Notes under the pieces: generated by a model | The model's input: only the letters and a program-made list of their open reading frames with translations | The model's database searches: none | Told to the model about the DNA's origin: nothing | NCBI GenBank assembly: GCA_947625935.1 | Contig: CANQQE010000003.1 | Location: 1 to 64,000 of the forward strand | DNA: 64,000 nucleotides | Reading direction: 5' to 3' | Source of the DNA: an uncultured Muribaculaceae bacterium | GTDB taxonomy: Bacteria; Bacteroidota; Bacteroidia; Bacteroidales; Muribaculaceae | In this document: positions 4,121 through 64,000 of the stretch, in pieces | How positions within the stretch are numbered: the stretch's first letter is position 1 | Layout of the letters: each line of letters begins with the position of its first letter | Program-made: the position numbers and the translations under genes

Positions 4121-5593
4121 ATGATGGACGCTATTATCACCTGTTTCATCCCATATGCCGACGCATCGCAGGCGCAAGGCACAGTAGCACAGCTCAAAGA
4201 ATCGGCTTTAGTGGACAAAATATACCTGTTGACCACGGATTCGGCTACCACGCCTATAGACGGGTGCGAGCTGATTGTCATCGACACGCTCAACAGCTCG
4301 GCCACGATGAAAAAAATAGCAGAAGCCTCAACGGGTAAATATACCCTGCTTTACACGAAACATAACCAACTCGTTCTGGGCTACCTGTCGCTCGAGCGTT
4401 TCGTAGCCTTAGCCGAGGATTCAATGGCCTCCATGCTTTATGCCGACCACTACGCCGTGGCCGATGGCAAGCGCGTGAACGCTCCCGTTATCGACTATCA
4501 AACGGGTTCGCTTCGCGATGACTTCGATTTCGGGTCGCTGCTGTTCATCTGCACCCGTTGCCTGAAAGCCGCCGCTGCCGGCATCGACAAAGAATATAAG
4601 GCCGCCGGACTCTATGACTTGCGCCTAAGGCTGTCGCGCCAGGCTCCGATAGTCCACATCAACGAATACCTCTATGACGATGTAGAGCTTGACAATCGCT
4701 GCAGCGGAGAGAAAATATTTGATTATGTAGACCCTAAGAACCGCGGCGTGCAGATAGAGATGGAGGAGGCTTGCACCGCACATCTCAAAGCCGTCGGGGG
4801 CTACCTTGAGCCGGTGTTTGAGAAGATAGATTTCAATCAGGGTGACTTCGAGTATGAGGCATCGGTGGTGATTCCCGTGAGGAACCGCGTGCGCACCATC
4901 CGCGACGCCATCGAGTGTGTCCTCGCCCAAAAGACCGATTTTCCATTCAACCTGATTGTCGTGGACAATCACAGCACCGACGGCACGACAGAGGCGATAG
5001 ATGAGTACAAGGATGACCCGCGTCTGATACATATCGTCCCCGAACGTAAAGACCTCGGCATCGGGGGTTGCTGGAATGTCGGGGCGCATCACCCCAAGTG
5101 CGGCAAGTTTGCCGTCCAGCTTGACAGCGACGACGTTTATGCCGACGAGAATACGCTCGCAACCGTTGTCAAGGCTTTCCATGAACAGAACTGCGGCATG
5201 GTTGTGGGTACCTATATGCTCACAGACATAAACAAGCAGATGATTCCGCCGGGTGTCATCGACCACAAGGAGTGGACTCCTGAGAACGGTCGCAACAACG
5301 CCTTGCGCATCAACGGGCTTGGCGCGCCGCGCGCTTTCTATACCCCTCTGCTGCGCCGTCTGCCGATACCCAACACAAGCTATGGGGAGGACTACGCAGA
5401 GGGATTGGCCGTGTCGCGTAACTATCAGATAGGCCGCATCTGGCATCCCATCTATCTTTGCCGCCGCTGGGAAGATAACTCGGACGCCGTGTTGGACCGC
5501 AACAAAATGAACGCCAACAATCTCTATAAAGACCGCATACGCACCTGGGAGCTTCAGGCCCGTATATCAAAAAACAAGCGTGATGGCAAGTAA
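4121..5593 (+). CDS. Family 2 glycosyltransferase with two GT-A-like modules
   Basis: 490 residues, no signal peptide. The C-terminal half is a standard GT2 domain: SVVIPVRNR from about 248, VVDNHSTDGT, and the metal-binding DSDD at about 334-337. The N-terminal 240 residues also look like a GT-A fold, with YADHY near residue 108 in the place of a DxD, so the protein may be a tandem enzyme or carry a regulatory pseudo-domain. The coding end overlaps the next start by 11 nt, indicating translational coupling to the DUF4922 gene. It begins 24 nt after the amidase stop. Donor and acceptor cannot be read from the sequence; envelope glycan work is likely. Confidence 0.8.
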   Translation: MMDAIITCFIPYADASQAQGTVAQLKESALVDKIYLLTTDSATTPIDGCELIVIDTLNSSATMKKIAEASTGKYTLLYTKHNQLVLGYLSLERFVALAEDSMASMLYADHYAVADGKRVNAPVIDYQTGSLRDDFDFGSLLFICTRCLKAAAAGIDKEYKAAGLYDLRLRLSRQAPIVHINEYLYDDVELDNRCSGEKIFDYVDPKNRGVQIEMEEACTAHLKAVGGYLEPVFEKIDFNQGDFEYEASVVIPVRNRVRTIRDAIECVLAQKTDFPFNLIVVDNHSTDGTTEAIDEYKDDPRLIHIVPERKDLGIGGCWNVGAHHPKCGKFAVQLDSDDVYADENTLATVVKAFHEQNCGMVVGTYMLTDINKQMIPPGVIDHKEWTPENGRNNALRINGLGAPRAFYTPLLRRLPIPNTSYGEDYAEGLAVSRNYQIGRIWHPIYLCRRWEDNSDAVLDRNKMNANNLYKDRIRTWELQARISKNKRDGK

Positions 5594-6527
5594 AAAGTTA
5601 CTTCACGACGTAGAGAAGCTGATAGCGTCGCAGCTCGTAGAGTGGCCGCAGGCGGCAGATAACTACAAGGCTCTCGCCGGAGTTAAGGTGAAGACGCTCG
5701 ATGTCGACGGGATGAAGGTCAAGGTGCAGTTCAACCCCGCCAGGATAGTGTCGTCGTCGGCCAAAGTCGACGCGAAATCGCTCAAAGAGCGCAAATGCTT
5801 CCTATGCGAGGCTAACCGCCCCGCAGTGCAGTCGGGGATAGAGTGGTGCGACTATGTGGTCTTGATCAACCCGTTCCCTATTTTCCCTCGTCATCTCACC
5901 ATCCCGGACCGAAGCCATGTGGACCAGCTAATCAAAGGCCGCGTGGCCGATATGATGAGGCTGGCTTGTGAACTTGAGGGTTACACGGTGTTCTACAACG
6001 GCCCGAAATGCGGGGCTTCGGCACCCGACCATATGCACTTTCAGGCTGGAAATTCGGATTTCCTGACCCTTGCCGATGCGCTGAAAATCAGTTCCCGCAA
6101 TCCTATCATCGTGGACAGACGCGGCAATCTGTCGGCTCTACGCGGGTTACCGCTAAATATGTTTCTGATCAGCGCGATTGATTTCGAGTATGGCCAGAAG
6201 CTGTTTGACCGACTGTATGACGCGCTGCCTGTGCCGGCGGGTGAGGCGGAACCGATGATGAATCTATTGTGTTTCAAGCAGGGTGACACGGTCAACCTGG
6301 CTGTCATACCCCGCAAACGCCACCGTCCGTCGTTCTACGGGACAGAGGGGGAGGGGTGTATGCTGCTCAGCCCGGCCTCGGTCGATATGGGTGGAGTGTT
6401 TATCACACCGCTCGAAAAAGATTTCAAACGCATGGACGCCGATTTGGTCAGAAAGATATATGATGAGCTATGCTTGGACCTCCATGATGTGGCCGATATT
6501 GTCGACAGACTGAAATCTAAAATGTAA
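5583..6527 (+). CDS. DUF4922 protein, GalT/Ap4A-phosphorylase-like nucleotidyltransferase of the HIT superfamily
   Basis: 314 residues from the ATG at 5583 (a GTG lies one codon earlier). The motif H-M-H-F-Q at 150-154 is the HxHxQ signature of the nucleotidyltransferase/phosphorylase branch of the HIT superfamily (GalT, Ap4A phosphorylase, GDP-galactose phosphorylase). The second His is the usual nucleotide-accepting nucleophile. CFLC near residue 61 may be part of a metal site. Coupled to the glycosyltransferase and followed 36 nt later by spoIID. Known: the branch transfers NMP between phosphates or sugars. Inferred: it makes or recovers a nucleotide sugar used by the partner glycosyltransferase or in muropeptide recycling. 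The exact substrate is unknown. Confidence 0.75.
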   Translation: MASKKLLHDVEKLIASQLVEWPQAADNYKALAGVKVKTLDVDGMKVKVQFNPARIVSSSAKVDAKSLKERKCFLCEANRPAVQSGIEWCDYVVLINPFPIFPRHLTIPDRSHVDQLIKGRVADMMRLACELEGYTVFYNGPKCGASAPDHMHFQAGNSDFLTLADALKISSRNPIIVDRRGNLSALRGLPLNMFLISAIDFEYGQKLFDRLYDALPVPAGEAEPMMNLLCFKQGDTVNLAVIPRKRHRPSFYGTEGEGCMLLSPASVDMGGVFITPLEKDFKRMDADLVRKIYDELCLDLHDVADIVDRLKSKM

Positions 6528-60933: not shown

Positions 60934-61197
60934 ATGAATGATATTAGGAACAAACATAGAGAAATGGTTGGTCAGGTGTCACCTGAAATAAAGGAAGAAA
61001 TTAACCTTTCTTTTGCAATATCCAATAAAATCGACGTACTTATGCAAGAGCGCGGACTTTCAAAGAAGCAGTTTGCCGATCAGATAGGGAAACGTCCGAG
61101 CGAAATAACCCGATGGTTGAGCGGACAGCATAATTTCACTGTCTCCACACTTGCCATGCTGTCAGCATTTTTCGGTAAATCCATAATCTCTGTCTAA
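60934..61197 (+). CDS. HTH-XRE regulator, HigA antitoxin-like
   Basis: 87 residues from ATG 60934. The helix-turn-helix is KKQFADQIGKRPSEITRWLSGQHNFTVSTLAMLSAFFGK (about 43-81), close to HigA-type antitoxins and to small XRE regulators. No HigB-like toxin flanks it; instead, 2 nt after its stop, a broken EcoRI-family methylase begins. It could be an orphan antitoxin or a controller protein for the lost restriction-modification set. AT-rich codons compared with secA. Confidence 0.7.
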   Translation: MNDIRNKHREMVGQVSPEIKEEINLSFAISNKIDVLMQERGLSKKQFADQIGKRPSEITRWLSGQHNFTVSTLAMLSAFFGKSIISV

Positions 61198-61199
61198 TC

Positions 61200-61494
61200 A
61201 TGGCCAACGAATCACTGTCGAGGGTGTTTCAGAACTACCGCCAATAAGCCCAAACTCATAGGCGGCTTGCCCATGGGCAAGCCCTACCAGGCTGATTCGC
61301 AGTGATATGTGAATTATTGCGTGACGAGTCAGACATTTGACAGGGAGGTCTGCAATATCCTCAAGAATGATGAGTTCTATACTCAATATTACGATATTGA
61401 GCGTGAGATAAACGCTTATCTCGAATTTGACCCTGATGTGTTCCGTGGAAAAACCGTCCTGTTGCCCTGTGATGACCCGGAATGGAGCAACCTA
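61200..61494 (+). pseudogene. Remnant of an EcoRI-family adenine methyltransferase
   Basis: A short frame MANESLSRVFQNYRQ from 61200 ends at a stop, then after a scrambled stretch with a 20-bp palindrome the frame at 61309-61494 encodes KNDEFYTQYYDIEREINAYL and [18 protein letters not shown], the spacing to CDDP and the IE-x-E-I stretch are the conserved N-terminus of the M.EcoRI family of adenine methyltransferases. The match stops at Ser-Asn-Leu; the rest of the enzyme (over 200 residues) is missing before guaA. Broken copy, or end of a recombination event. Confidence 0.68.
61264..61283. repeat. 20-bp perfect palindrome in the methylase remnant
   Basis: GGCTTGCC-CAT-GGGCAAGCC-type sequence at 61264-61283 equals its own reverse complement over all 20 bases. 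It lies at the break between the two methylase pieces, possibly the scar of a deletion or a small insertion. Confidence 0.7.
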
Positions 61495-61577
61495 AGGAAA
61501 CAAAGACAACAAAAACAAATTTAGTTATCCATGAAATAGTTGCAAGGTTTATGAGAGATATAAGGCGTGATGAAATT

Positions 61578-61631: not shown

Positions 61632-63155
61632 ATGCAGGAAAAAATCATCATTCTCGACTTCGGTTCGCAGACGACGCAGCTCATAGGTCGCCGCGTGCGC
61701 GAGCTTAATATGTATTGCGAGATTATCCCTTACAACAAGTTCCCGGAGGATGACCCTTCGGTGATCGGCGTGATATTGTCGGGAAGCCCGTTCTCGGTGT
61801 ACGATGAGCGCGCTTTCAAGATTGAACTTGACAAGATACGCGGTAAATATCCCGTGCTCGGCATCTGCTACGGTGCGCAGTTCATGGCTTATGTGAACGG
61901 CGGCAGCGTTGAACCGGCTGAAAGCCGCGAGTATGGGCGGGCGCATCTGTCGTGGATCGAGACGGGGAATCCGTTGTTCAAGGATATCGAGGTTGGCAGC
62001 CAGGTGTGGATGAGCCACGGCGACACCATCACTTCGATACCAGACAATTTCGAGGTCATAGCCTCGACCGACTCTGTCAAAATCGCGGCTTATCAGGCCA
62101 AAGGTGAGAAGTTGTGGGGGGTGCAGTTCCACCCTGAGGTTTATCACTCGACCGATGGGACTCAATTGTTGAAAAACTTCGTGGTCGATATCTGCGGCGG
62201 TAAGCAGGACTGGACGGCTCAGTCGTTCATTGAGACCACGGTGGCGCGTCTCCGCGAGCAGCTCGGCGATGACAAGGTTGTGCTGGGGTTGAGCGGCGGC
62301 GTGGACTCGTCGGTAGCGGCGGCGTTGCTCAACAAGGCCATAGGGTCTAACCTGACCTGTATCTTCGTTGACCACGGTATGCTGCGCAAGAATGAGTTTG
62401 AGAATGTGTTGAACGATTATAAGTGCATGGGCCTTAACGTGGTCGGGGTTGACGCATCGGCAAAATTCTTTGGAGAGCTTGCCGGGGTTTCGGAGCCTGA
62501 ACGCAAGCGTAAGATTATCGGCAAGGGTTTCATCGATGTGTTTGACGTGGAGGCCCACAAGATAAAAGATGTGAAGTGGCTTGCCCAGGGTACCATCTAT
62601 CCTGATTGCATCGAGTCGCTTTCGATTACCGGCACGACCATCAAGAGCCATCACAATGTGGGCGGTCTGCCGGAAAAGATGAATCTTAAACTTTGCGAGC
62701 CGTTGCGTCTTCTGTTTAAGGATGAGGTGCGCCGTGTGGGGCGGCAGCTCGGTATGCCGGAGCATCTGATAGGGCGCCATCCGTTCCCGGGTCCGGGTCT
62801 GGCTGTGAGGATACTGGGCGACATCACCCCTGAGAAGGTGAGGGTGCTTCAGGACGCTGACGATATTTTCATCACGTCGTTGCGCAAGGCCGGCCTGTAT
62901 GACAAAATATGGCAGGCGGGCGTCATATTGCTCCCCGTGCGGAGCGTCGGCGTGATGGGCGATGAGCGCACTTATGAGCAGGCTGTGGCTTTGCGCGCTG
63001 TTACTTCGACTGACGGCATGACGGCTGACTGGTACCCGCTACCGTATGATTTTATGGCGAAGGTGTCGAACGATATCATCAACAAGGTGCGGGGTGTCAA
63101 CCGCGTATGTTATGACATCTCGTCGAAGCCGCCGGCAACCATCGAGTGGGAATAA
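61632..63155 (+). CDS. guaA: GMP synthase (glutamine-hydrolysing)
   Basis: 507 residues from ATG 61632; the upstream extension overlaps its promoter. The class I GATase has [19 protein letters not shown], the catalytic Cys in LGICYGAQ, and HPEV. The PP-loop [11 protein letters not shown] follows, then the C-terminal dimerisation domain ending IEWE. Makes GMP from XMP. Its conserved 3' end is a known integration site for genomic islands, relevant to the gene downstream. Confidence 0.96.
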
Positions 63156-63204
63156 TTTACCCACTCTGACACTCAGATTAAAATTTATTTTATATCATAT
63201 AAAT

Positions 63205-63244
63205 CAACCACTTAGCGGATAGATTATTTATCGCTAAGTGGTTG
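63205..63244 (+). terminator. guaA terminator
   Basis: CAACCACTTAGCG (63205-63217) pairs perfectly over 13 bp with CGCTAAGTGGTTG (63232-63244) around a 14-nt loop, followed by CTTTC. Confidence 0.75.
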
Positions 63245-63280
63245 CTTTCATAACCAGTTTCCCGAAATTGTACCCTAAAA

Positions 63281-63311
63281 TTGTAGCCGACGGATTTATT
63301 TAGTAATTTTG
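63281..63311 (+). promoter_or_regulatory. Promoter of the EcoRI-like endonuclease gene
   Basis: TTG at 63281-63283, a 20-nt spacer and TAATTTTG at 63304-63311, with the ATG at 63338. The gene therefore appears to be transcribed in its present host. Confidence 0.7.
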
Positions 63312-63337
63312 CTGTTGAATCCGCAATATTACCTGTC

Positions 63338-64000
63338 ATGGCAAAAAAGAATCAATCAAAGAGATTAACCCAACAACACAGAGTTTCGCATGGGGTGGTT
63401 GGGATATTTGGAGATGAAGCCAAATTACATGATATGACAGTCGGGCAGATTTCTCAATTGGTTCTCGACAGATTGCGTACTGATTTCCCTAACCTGTCAT
63501 TCAGACATAGGGATAGTGTCAGAAAAGAGGAGATAAATTTAGCTTTACAAAAGATAGATTTAGAATTAGGACAAACTTTGTTTGTCCCCAATTCGAGTAT
63601 AATTCCCGATGGGGGATTAATTGAGGTTAAAGACGATTATGATAAATGGCGGATTATTTTAGTATCGGAAGCCAAGCATCAAGGTCGGGATATTGAGAAT
63701 ATTAGAGCGGGTAGATTAGTAGGTAAAAATAATGACCAAGATTTGATGGCGGCGGGAAATGCTATCGAAAGATCTCACAAAAATATTTCAGAAATAGCTA
63801 ATTTGATGCTGGGAGAATCGCATTTTCCTTATGAGCTTTTTCTTGAAGGCTCAAATTTTTTGACAAAGACAATAAGCGTTACTCGTCCAGATGGAAGGGT
63901 TGTGGTGCTTGAATATAACTCCGGGATATTAAATATATTAGATCGGTTGACTGCTGCAAATTATGGATTGCCTATAAATACAAATCTTTGTGAAAATCGG
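63338..64000 (+). CDS. EcoRI-type restriction endonuclease, 3' end beyond the window
   Basis: 221 codons, still open at the window end (EcoRI has 277). The protein aligns without gaps to EcoRI as I recall it, at roughly seven residues in ten by my own count. The catalytic set falls at the same numbers: P90-D91, E111, K113 (PDGG; SEAKHQG). The recognition arm MAAGNAIERSHKN is identical, with N141, A142, E144 and R145. Residue 200, Arg in EcoRI, is Ile here (63935-63937). Predicted target GAATTC. AT-rich codons (AGA, ATA, TTA) unlike the chromosomal neighbours point to transfer. The matching methylase is expected just past the window, since EcoRI's methylase follows its endonuclease. Confidence 0.93.
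   Translation, partial: MAKKNQSKRLTQQHRVSHGVVGIFGDEAKLHDMTVGQISQLVLDRLRTDFPNLSFRHRDSVRKEEINLALQKIDLELGQTLFVPNSSIIPDGGLIEVKDDYDKWRIILVSEAKHQGRDIENIRAGRLVGKNNDQDLMAAGNAIERSHKNISEIANLMLGESHFPYELFLEGSNFLTKTISVTRPDGRVVVLEYNSGILNILDRLTAANYGLPINTNLCENR

Follow-up and report, generated by a model that had tools for sequence, protein, structure and literature searches.

An EcoRI-family restriction-modification operon at the 3' end of guaA in an uncultured Muribaculaceae bacterium and its relation to integrase-less units at the same site

The EcoRI-family operon and its surroundings

The stretch of DNA analysed here (the window) is 64,000 nucleotides long and belongs to an uncultured Muribaculaceae genome (G000; other genomes and loci carry G and L numbers). 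At its right edge, just downstream of guaA, lies a gene for an EcoRI-family restriction endonuclease (R), followed by a gene for an EcoRI-type methylase (M). The contig extends to 165,474 bases and its numbering continues that of the window, which holds codons 1-221 of the 279-codon R gene, the remainder being on the same contig. The features are:

61632..63155, + strand: guaA (GMP synthase), an intact open frame of 507 amino acids ending in ...PPATIEWE; apparent integration target
63141..63155, + strand: 3' end of guaA, ATCGAGTGGGAATAA; left copy of the presumed crossover core, with copies at the far end of related elements
63156..63337, + strand: left arm between guaA and R, matching the left ends of the G016 and G120 integrase elements
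63205..63244, + strand: inverted repeat or hairpin within the left arm, folding at -22.0 kcal/mol; perhaps the terminator of guaA
63268..63288, + strand: TTGTACCC doublet with a 13-nt period, presumed integrase arm sites
63304..63311, + strand: TAATTTTG, read from the sequence as a Bacteroides-type -7 element before R
63338..64000 in the window, gene end at 64177 in the contig, + strand: R, open frame
63935..63937, + strand: codon 200 of R, ATA, encoding Ile at a position occupied by Arg in 153 of the 154 other proteins aligned
64187..65194, beyond the window, + strand: M, 335 amino acids, PF13651 with 402.8 bits

Judged by sequence, the membership of R in the EcoRI family is not in doubt, while its activity is. 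R matches PF02963 over its full length (458.6 bits, residues 17-273 on profile positions 1-257 of 257), its closest PDB structures are those of EcoRI (E ~1e-128, residues 1-275 aligned without gaps on 1-275 of 2oxv), and 191 of 277 aligned residues (69.0%) are identical to E. coli EcoRI. P90, D91, E111 and K113 are the same residues at the same positions as in EcoRI, and so is the whole recognition arm 137-149, MAAGNAIERSHKN. The residues used by EcoRI in recognition (M137, the arm to N149 with E144 and R145, R200 and R203) are all kept in R, with R200 as the sole exception. AlphaFold gave a pLDDT of 34.4 from the single sequence, and a pLDDT of 59.6 and pTM of 0.63 with 46 sequences, the recognition region being poorly modelled; all five significant Foldseek matches of the model are EcoRI, and the model is uninformative on residue 200. 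Extending the contig rightward, as an earlier note on the window had proposed, reached the C-terminus at 64177 with the frame unbroken in the last codons and a methylase gene directly 3' of it. The description of R in that note as a close EcoRI homologue without a frame break is thereby borne out.

M starts 9 nt after R, giving the operon order R then M, and was scored as a Type II methyltransferase by PADLOC as well. As a linked cognate N6-adenine methylase is present, the pair would, by its genes, make up an EcoRI-type Type II restriction-modification (R-M) system. Two chromate transporter genes are situated 3' of M. The G+C content of R (37.7%) and M (36.2%), compared with 55.1% in guaA and 49.8% in a 490-kb sample of the genome, fits a foreign origin. 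A remnant of a second, divergent EcoRI_methylase-family gene (61360-61542, + strand, 58.1 bits, two stops) lies just 5' of guaA, so that sequence of this family is found on both flanks of guaA. A small HTH_3 protein, which we presume to be antitoxin-like, is also encoded 5' of guaA (60934-61194, + strand).

The view in the earlier note that EcoRI-type enzymes are known mainly from proteobacterial plasmids is outdated. A protein search with R gave 5,288 homologues at E<=1e-3, and genome_contigs contained 34 R loci, with titles including Bacteroidota, Patescibacteria, Chlamydiales, Fibrobacter and others; R matched 19 plasmid records and one phage record, and was present in 14 of 398 genomes of the window's family and 8 of 393 of its order. 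REBASE held 526 putative EcoRI-like proteins by 2018 (PMC5896346, section 3.8). The 34 loci, the 5,288 homologues, the 14 family genomes and the REBASE count rule out that an EcoRI homologue in a Bacteroidales chromosome is a rarity: the window R is a member of a well-known family, ordinary as an EcoRI homologue and alone of little import. Among characterized relatives, RsrI is ~50% identical to EcoRI and performs the same reaction (PMC4081073), and LraI is also a G/AATTC cutter (PMC5896346). The window operon resembles the EcoRI R-M system (PF02963 and PF13651) in having both genes, in the order of R and M and in the catalytic and recognition-arm residues; it differs in having Ile200 in place of Arg and in being chromosomal at guaA, while the E. 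coli record (L219) is a small plasmid of 3,986 bp. A further EcoRI-type R-M system (L198) was seen on IMG/VR contig IMGVR_UViG_3300013120_000602, outside the guaA-linked clade described below.

Residue 200 and the activity of the window endonuclease

GAATTC is the likeliest reading of the target of R. The earlier statement that R should cut this site is less certain for the window copy owing to Ile200. Residue 200 was compared in 154 other proteins (the other 119 of the best 120 of the 5,288 homologues, the intact loci and one E. coli EcoRI; the window's own protein, P0001, was removed from the conservation count), of which 153 have Arg and one has Lys. Two relatives 99% identical to R have Arg200 and Val166 where R has Ile200 and Glu166. 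Arg200 of EcoRI contacts guanine (PMC3806743), and the R200K mutant has lower activity with unchanged specificity (PMC11755562); Ile200 may weaken GAATTC cutting by the window R. Because R has a single departure at columns conserved at >=97%, which is the median among 155 proteins, we read Ile200 as a caution and not as proof of loss.

Counts of the site itself were considered as a possible footprint of long R activity. GAATTC occurs 39 times in 490 kb of G000 compared with 83.0 expected (O/E 0.47, rank 15 of 64 palindromes); as 14 of the 64 palindromes have a lower ratio, this avoidance is not specific and gives no clear footprint. In the same sample CACGTG was seen 0 times with 39.2 expected, and ATGCAT, AGGCCT, CTTAAG and GCATGC are likewise strongly depleted. 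Given these depleted palindromes, further R-M systems may act in the host of the window.

R-M units and element ends at the 3' end of guaA

The most informative point of the earlier note was its remark that R lies beside guaA. BLAST with R, M, guaA and the chromate transporter revealed R-M genes just 3' of guaA in 11 loci (G000, G082, G125, G194, G234, G239, G400, G404, G420, L008 and L037). Nine of these are among the 14 R-positive genomes of the 398 searched in the family, and the other two come from genome_contigs. The distance from guaA to the R-M genes is 85-182 nt, the window having 182 nt, except for L008 with 740 nt. guaA and the doublet were absent from the other R loci checked, which comprise 44 entries with flanks of limited length, some genomes being entered more than once. 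In trees of M and R, the guaA-linked proteins group as a single clade (95/95 for M, 10 of 41 rows; 96/92 for R, 7 of 35 rows). These trees contain only proteins of >=93% of the query length (35 for R and 41 for M, from 45 loci scanned); L007 and L009 (repeats of G234 and G420) and L025 (a repeat of G046) were left out, L039 and L040 were unused because of short matches, and L037 is in neither tree as both its genes are broken. In this locus, from Prevotella sp. MGM2, R is interrupted by ~1.36 kb (4640-6001) and M is frame-broken. Seven of the 11 guaA-linked copies have an intact R and ten an intact M, G194 being another locus with a broken R.

The identity of M is unrelated to the identity of guaA (Spearman 0.14, p 0.43, 36 pairs from nine carriers): guaA genes 69.0% identical are accompanied by M at 85.2%, and guaA genes 93.9% identical by M at 77.9%. 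Downstream genes mostly differ among carriers, with one gene family in common in G125 and G234, and upstream neighbours are common to the carrier pairs G400/L008 and G082/G404. Because M identity is unrelated to guaA identity, downstream genes mostly differ and the proteins form one clade, the R-M unit has spread horizontally between hosts while staying at guaA.

Integrase elements use the same position. The gene 3' of guaA in L150 encodes a truncated integrase that has an Arm-DNA-bind_5 domain, and relatives of this integrase (type A) were present in four of the 398 family genomes: G016, G120, G195 (the genome of L150) and G281. The integrase is directly 3' of guaA in the first three, while in G281 it begins 207 nt into a contig which starts with GGGAATAA, like the guaA end, and which also carries terminase, portal and amidase genes of a prophage. 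From guaA to the second core, the G016 and G120 elements span 8.2 and 8.9 kb, and their 445-aa integrases are 70-72% identical to the 444-aa one of G281; that of G016 has the domains PF00589, PF17293 and PF13102. The other G016 proteins tested (ParB-like, a second small tyrosine recombinase and unknowns) include none recognised as a conjugation or capsid protein. The 398-genome search found no type-A integrase in G000 itself, and none of these genomes has both the EcoRI R and the type-A integrase. A viral_contigs scan with the integrase gave no relative; the phage collection gave 44 records, the best 20 of the 44 having <=33.2% identity. Two contigs of G281 (L243 and L244) start with the same type-A doublet and core copy and lead into different genes, which may mark either a repeated element or a second site.

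The left arm of the window is closely related to the left ends of these elements. Its first 136 nt are identical to G016 in 115 of 146 columns and to G120 in 113 of 142, with local scores of 149 and 150, whereas 200 shuffles gave at most 29 and 30; among 97 targets the next scores are those of G195/L150 (the same locus, 55) and G281 (43), while EcoRI loci reach at most 35 and all remaining targets at most 33. The doublet, TTGTACCC-N5-TTGTACCC, is found in six of the 11 EcoRI loci and in the integrase locus L150; the remaining 81 guaA loci, of which some are short, lack it, and ~480 kb of G000 searched on both strands contains it once, at 63268. In most EcoRI loci the part shared with the integrase elements on the left side is limited to the core and, in part, the doublet. 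By alignment, a stretch similar to TAATTTTG precedes the integrase gene in G016 and G120, and by eye other carriers have inverted repeats of different sequence at a place similar to that of the window hairpin.

On the other side, reading of the flanks revealed copies of the guaA end after M in several carriers. A scan of 93 guaA loci with the last 16 nt of their own guaA (<=3 mismatches) gave 12 matches compared with 2.5 for shuffled cores. Six are in five of the 11 EcoRI loci and six in six of the 82 others; four of the latter are at the three-mismatch limit and likely due to chance, the clear repeats being those of L142 (exact, 522 nt) and L124 (two mismatches, 2.4 kb). L008 and G082 have tandem core copies, two of those in L008 being 576 nt apart with no R-M between them. 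When the 199 nt before the right core of G016 were aligned with 94 guaA-downstream regions, the ranked matches were L037 (123/141), G120 (122/147), L070 (79/91), L067 (108/141), L075 (90/113) and L071 (72/90). All but G120 belong to the EcoRI loci, and in these the matching stretch directly follows M. Next came the left-arm doublet stretches of L150 (34/39) and of the window locus (30/37), the rest scoring <=36, which is noise. A right end is thus present in five of the 11 EcoRI loci (with a degenerate core in L075), and six are without a recognisable one. Within 400 nt of the window M no significant match to the right core was found (84 of 1000 shuffles score as well). A GAGTGGGCATTA stretch ~58 nt after M is suggestive by eye; it was rejected as right core, as it is not the best match by weight matrix, and the best match is not significant. 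The right-end DNA search gave no match anywhere in G000. The window therefore has the left end of the type-A family (core, arm and doublet) and no right end with a second core, the latter having apparently been lost.

Searched alone against 298 family genomes, the right-end DNA matched in ten (at most two candidates were scored per genome, so copies may be missed). These include the integrase elements G016 and G120, short matches in G195 and G281, the EcoRI cassettes of G082, G194 and G239, and G064, where the contig is cut and a 466-aa protein without Pfam match is encoded. In G198 guaA is followed by an N6_N4 methylase, a PADLOC Type II restriction endonuclease (516 bits), the right end and the core, and in G252 by the doublet, a HindVP-type endonuclease (437.6 bits), a C5 methylase, a second doublet and the core, so that both doublets and both cores are present; neither unit matched the integrase fragment. 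Of the units without integrase, five match the right end strongly, and each of these has Type II R-M genes (with R broken in G194). A second unit in G082, with a weaker right-end match, has only an HTH gene and no R-M. The units are ~2-2.5 kb long and without integrase, and three unrelated R-M systems lie between the same ends, which argues for exchange of R-M cargo between shared ends.

A second family of guaA-site elements (L136, L129 and L167) has a different tyrosine integrase and a serine resolvase (Pfam on L136). L124, L134 and L142 have the same left end, which starts ~22 nt 3' of guaA. L124 carries a C5 methylase and an NgoBV endonuclease, with its core repeat at 2.4 kb, and L134 an N6_N4 methylase and a HindIII-type endonuclease on a cut contig. 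L116 (a D12 methylase and an HTH_39 protein, the latter at a guess a nuclease) and L174 (an N6_N4 methylase and a NotI-like protein) adjoin guaA and, because they have no close core repeat, were assigned to neither family. Methylase genes were found <=2.5 kb from guaA in four of 80 non-carrier loci (L116, L124, L134 and L174) and farther away in L125 only, the scan using similarity to seven methylases of the same loci. Two-gene Type II systems are estimated at ~0.54 per genome (PMC4176335). As a rough judgement, 4 of 80 at one gene end looks far above chance; the 80 loci were chosen among the best guaA matches and are no random sample, several being short, and the queries were drawn from these loci and the carriers. 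No unoccupied site whose flanks match those of a type-A unit was seen; where guaA carries another insert, relatives lacking it have the same downstream genes (L115 and L120 for L116; L146 for L142 and L149). In L125 (G013) guaA is followed by an NTP_transf_2 nucleotidyltransferase-fold protein and then by two methylases, the first sharing 88.5% identity with the L134 methylase and the second of C5 type, which looks like a defence island. In two of three genomes of one genus (L062 and L063, from G002 and G003) a C5 methylase gene faces guaA in convergent orientation, at distances of 19 and 97 nt from the guaA end.

Possible routes of movement and their meaning

We consider it fairly probable that the window holds the decayed form of an R-M cassette which was flanked by att sites, carried no integrase and was formerly moved in trans by a tyrosine recombinase specific for guaA. 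The EcoRI-family operon would have arrived as cargo of a small integrative cassette at the guaA 3' end, from a family which has the ends of tyrosine-integrase elements using the last ~15 bp of guaA, and which carries R-M genes and no integrase. An integrase provided in trans by a related prophage or by an 8-9 kb element would excise and insert the cassette, the joining presumably taking place at ATCGAGTGGGARTRA and leaving guaA unharmed. After entry, R-M addiction, in which M protects and R punishes loss, would hold the cassette in place, and restriction of incoming GAATTC-bearing DNA would also favour its retention. Because the right end is gone and no such integrase was found in the genome, the window copy would now be fixed, and Ile200 hints that its R may be weakening. 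The sequences themselves show the R-M genes, the shared ends, the varied R-M cargo between similar ends and the horizontal spread, while movement in trans, specificity and addiction are inferred. Points against the cassette are the single end of the window copy, the six EcoRI loci without a right end, the two carrier pairs with common upstream neighbours, and the integrase-less units of G082 and L008 that hold no R-M genes.

The ends in common with the 8-9 kb elements, and an integrase found in a prophage as well, could also be explained if the R-M genes had been carried by an element with its own integrase (prophage, satellite or island) and the rest of that element had been deleted separately in every host; CIMEs (cis-mobilizable elements) are defined as such decayed derivatives (PMC7563491). 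This account overlaps with the trans-mobilised cassette and differs from it in origin more than in mode of movement. It seems rather doubtful to us, since none of the four integrase elements found (two of them incomplete) carries R-M genes, and three unrelated R-M systems occur between the same ends in recurrent units of 2.2-2.5 kb, a regularity beyond what independent decay would produce. Still less probable is that an ordinary chromosomal EcoRI R-M spread by homologous recombination via conserved guaA flanks, the similarity of ends marking the first insertion only. guaA is indeed a long conserved flank, there is a single clade at one locus, six of the 11 copies are without a recognisable right end, and two carrier pairs have common upstream neighbours; however, the mostly different downstream flanks leave no common right flank for a double crossover, unrelated R-M systems lie between the same ends in G198 and G252, and the tandem cores of L008 and G082 are better explained by site-specific accretion. 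A single clade at one site, sporadic in several genera of one family, would agree with a single ancestral insertion beside guaA followed by vertical inheritance and loss in most lineages as well, but M identity does not track guaA identity, downstream neighbours mostly differ, and with 384 of 398 genomes lacking an R match, though some of them are incomplete, very many losses would be needed, which makes this origin highly improbable.

Compatible with the integrase-less cassette is the possibility that the window nuclease is functionally dead and that the methylase alone matters, either in protection against other EcoRI-type systems or through residual methylation. Ile200 at a base-contact residue, Glu166 where the 99% identical relatives have Val, and R broken in four of the 11 guaA-linked copies compared with M in one all speak for it. 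On the other hand, the frame is intact, the catalytic residues are present, a single departure at columns conserved at >=97% is the median among 155 proteins, and EcoRI R200K keeps its specificity at lower activity (PMC11755562), so a dead nuclease is for us a tentative suggestion which we do not favour.

Seen more broadly, the guaA 3' end in these Bacteroidales could be a landing pad for interchangeable Type II R-M cassettes, a reading for which we put the chances only slightly above even. At least three unrelated R-M systems (the EcoRI type, the N6_N4 methylase with a PADLOC Type II endonuclease, and the C5 methylase with a HindVP-type endonuclease) lie between ends of one tyrosine-integrase family, and two more (NgoBV and HindIII types) share the left end of the second guaA integrase family; R-M genes would take the place of integrase genes, addiction would retain the cassettes, and integrase would be borrowed from prophages or other guaA elements.

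The guaA 3'-end integration hot spot is reportedly the subject of Song et al. 2012, and Furuta et al. 2010 is said to be the key paper on mobile forms of R-M systems. As regards integron cassettes, which have attC-type sites and an integron integrase, the integrase found here carries PF17293, PF13102 and PF00589 and the repeats are copies of the guaA end. ATE-1, the IncP island and GIsul2 likewise have a tyrosine integrase and the same target (PMC5704250); their hosts are Trueperella, Brucella and Pseudomonas, while the units described here are found in Bacteroidales, are ~2-2.5 kb long and have no integrase. Retained att ends, absent recombination genes and tandem occurrence are shared with CIMEs, as described in a Streptococcus survey (PMC7563491). 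In contrast to CIMEs, the integrase-bearing relatives are a prophage and elements without a recognised conjugation gene among the G016 proteins tested, and Type II R-M genes are present in all five units that lack an integrase and match the right end strongly. Five other EcoRI loci, G198 and G252 would fit the definition of a CIME, with both att sites and without recombination or transfer genes; the window copy, with its left end only, would be at most a decayed relative. R-M systems as movable units are known from plasmids, prophages, transposons, ICEs, integrons and long target duplications (PMC3031569, PMC4176335), and the forms named in the passages of these papers on mobile R-M do not include integrase-less units with tyrosine-integrase-family ends. 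Among the titles listed by searches of open-licence papers, none concerns guaA-site R-M cassettes in Bacteroidales.

Integrase-less units of ~2-2.5 kb would probably escape detectors based on integrases, though their ends are still recognisable. If the units move, seemingly immobile chromosomal R-M genes become testable as trans-mobilised cassettes, and guaA 3' ends are a place to seek new R-M systems. The location at guaA suggests one way in which R-M systems pass between chromosomes and, if the landing-pad reading is true, would offer a concrete route by which R-M systems that are rarely seen on recognised mobile elements turn over fast.
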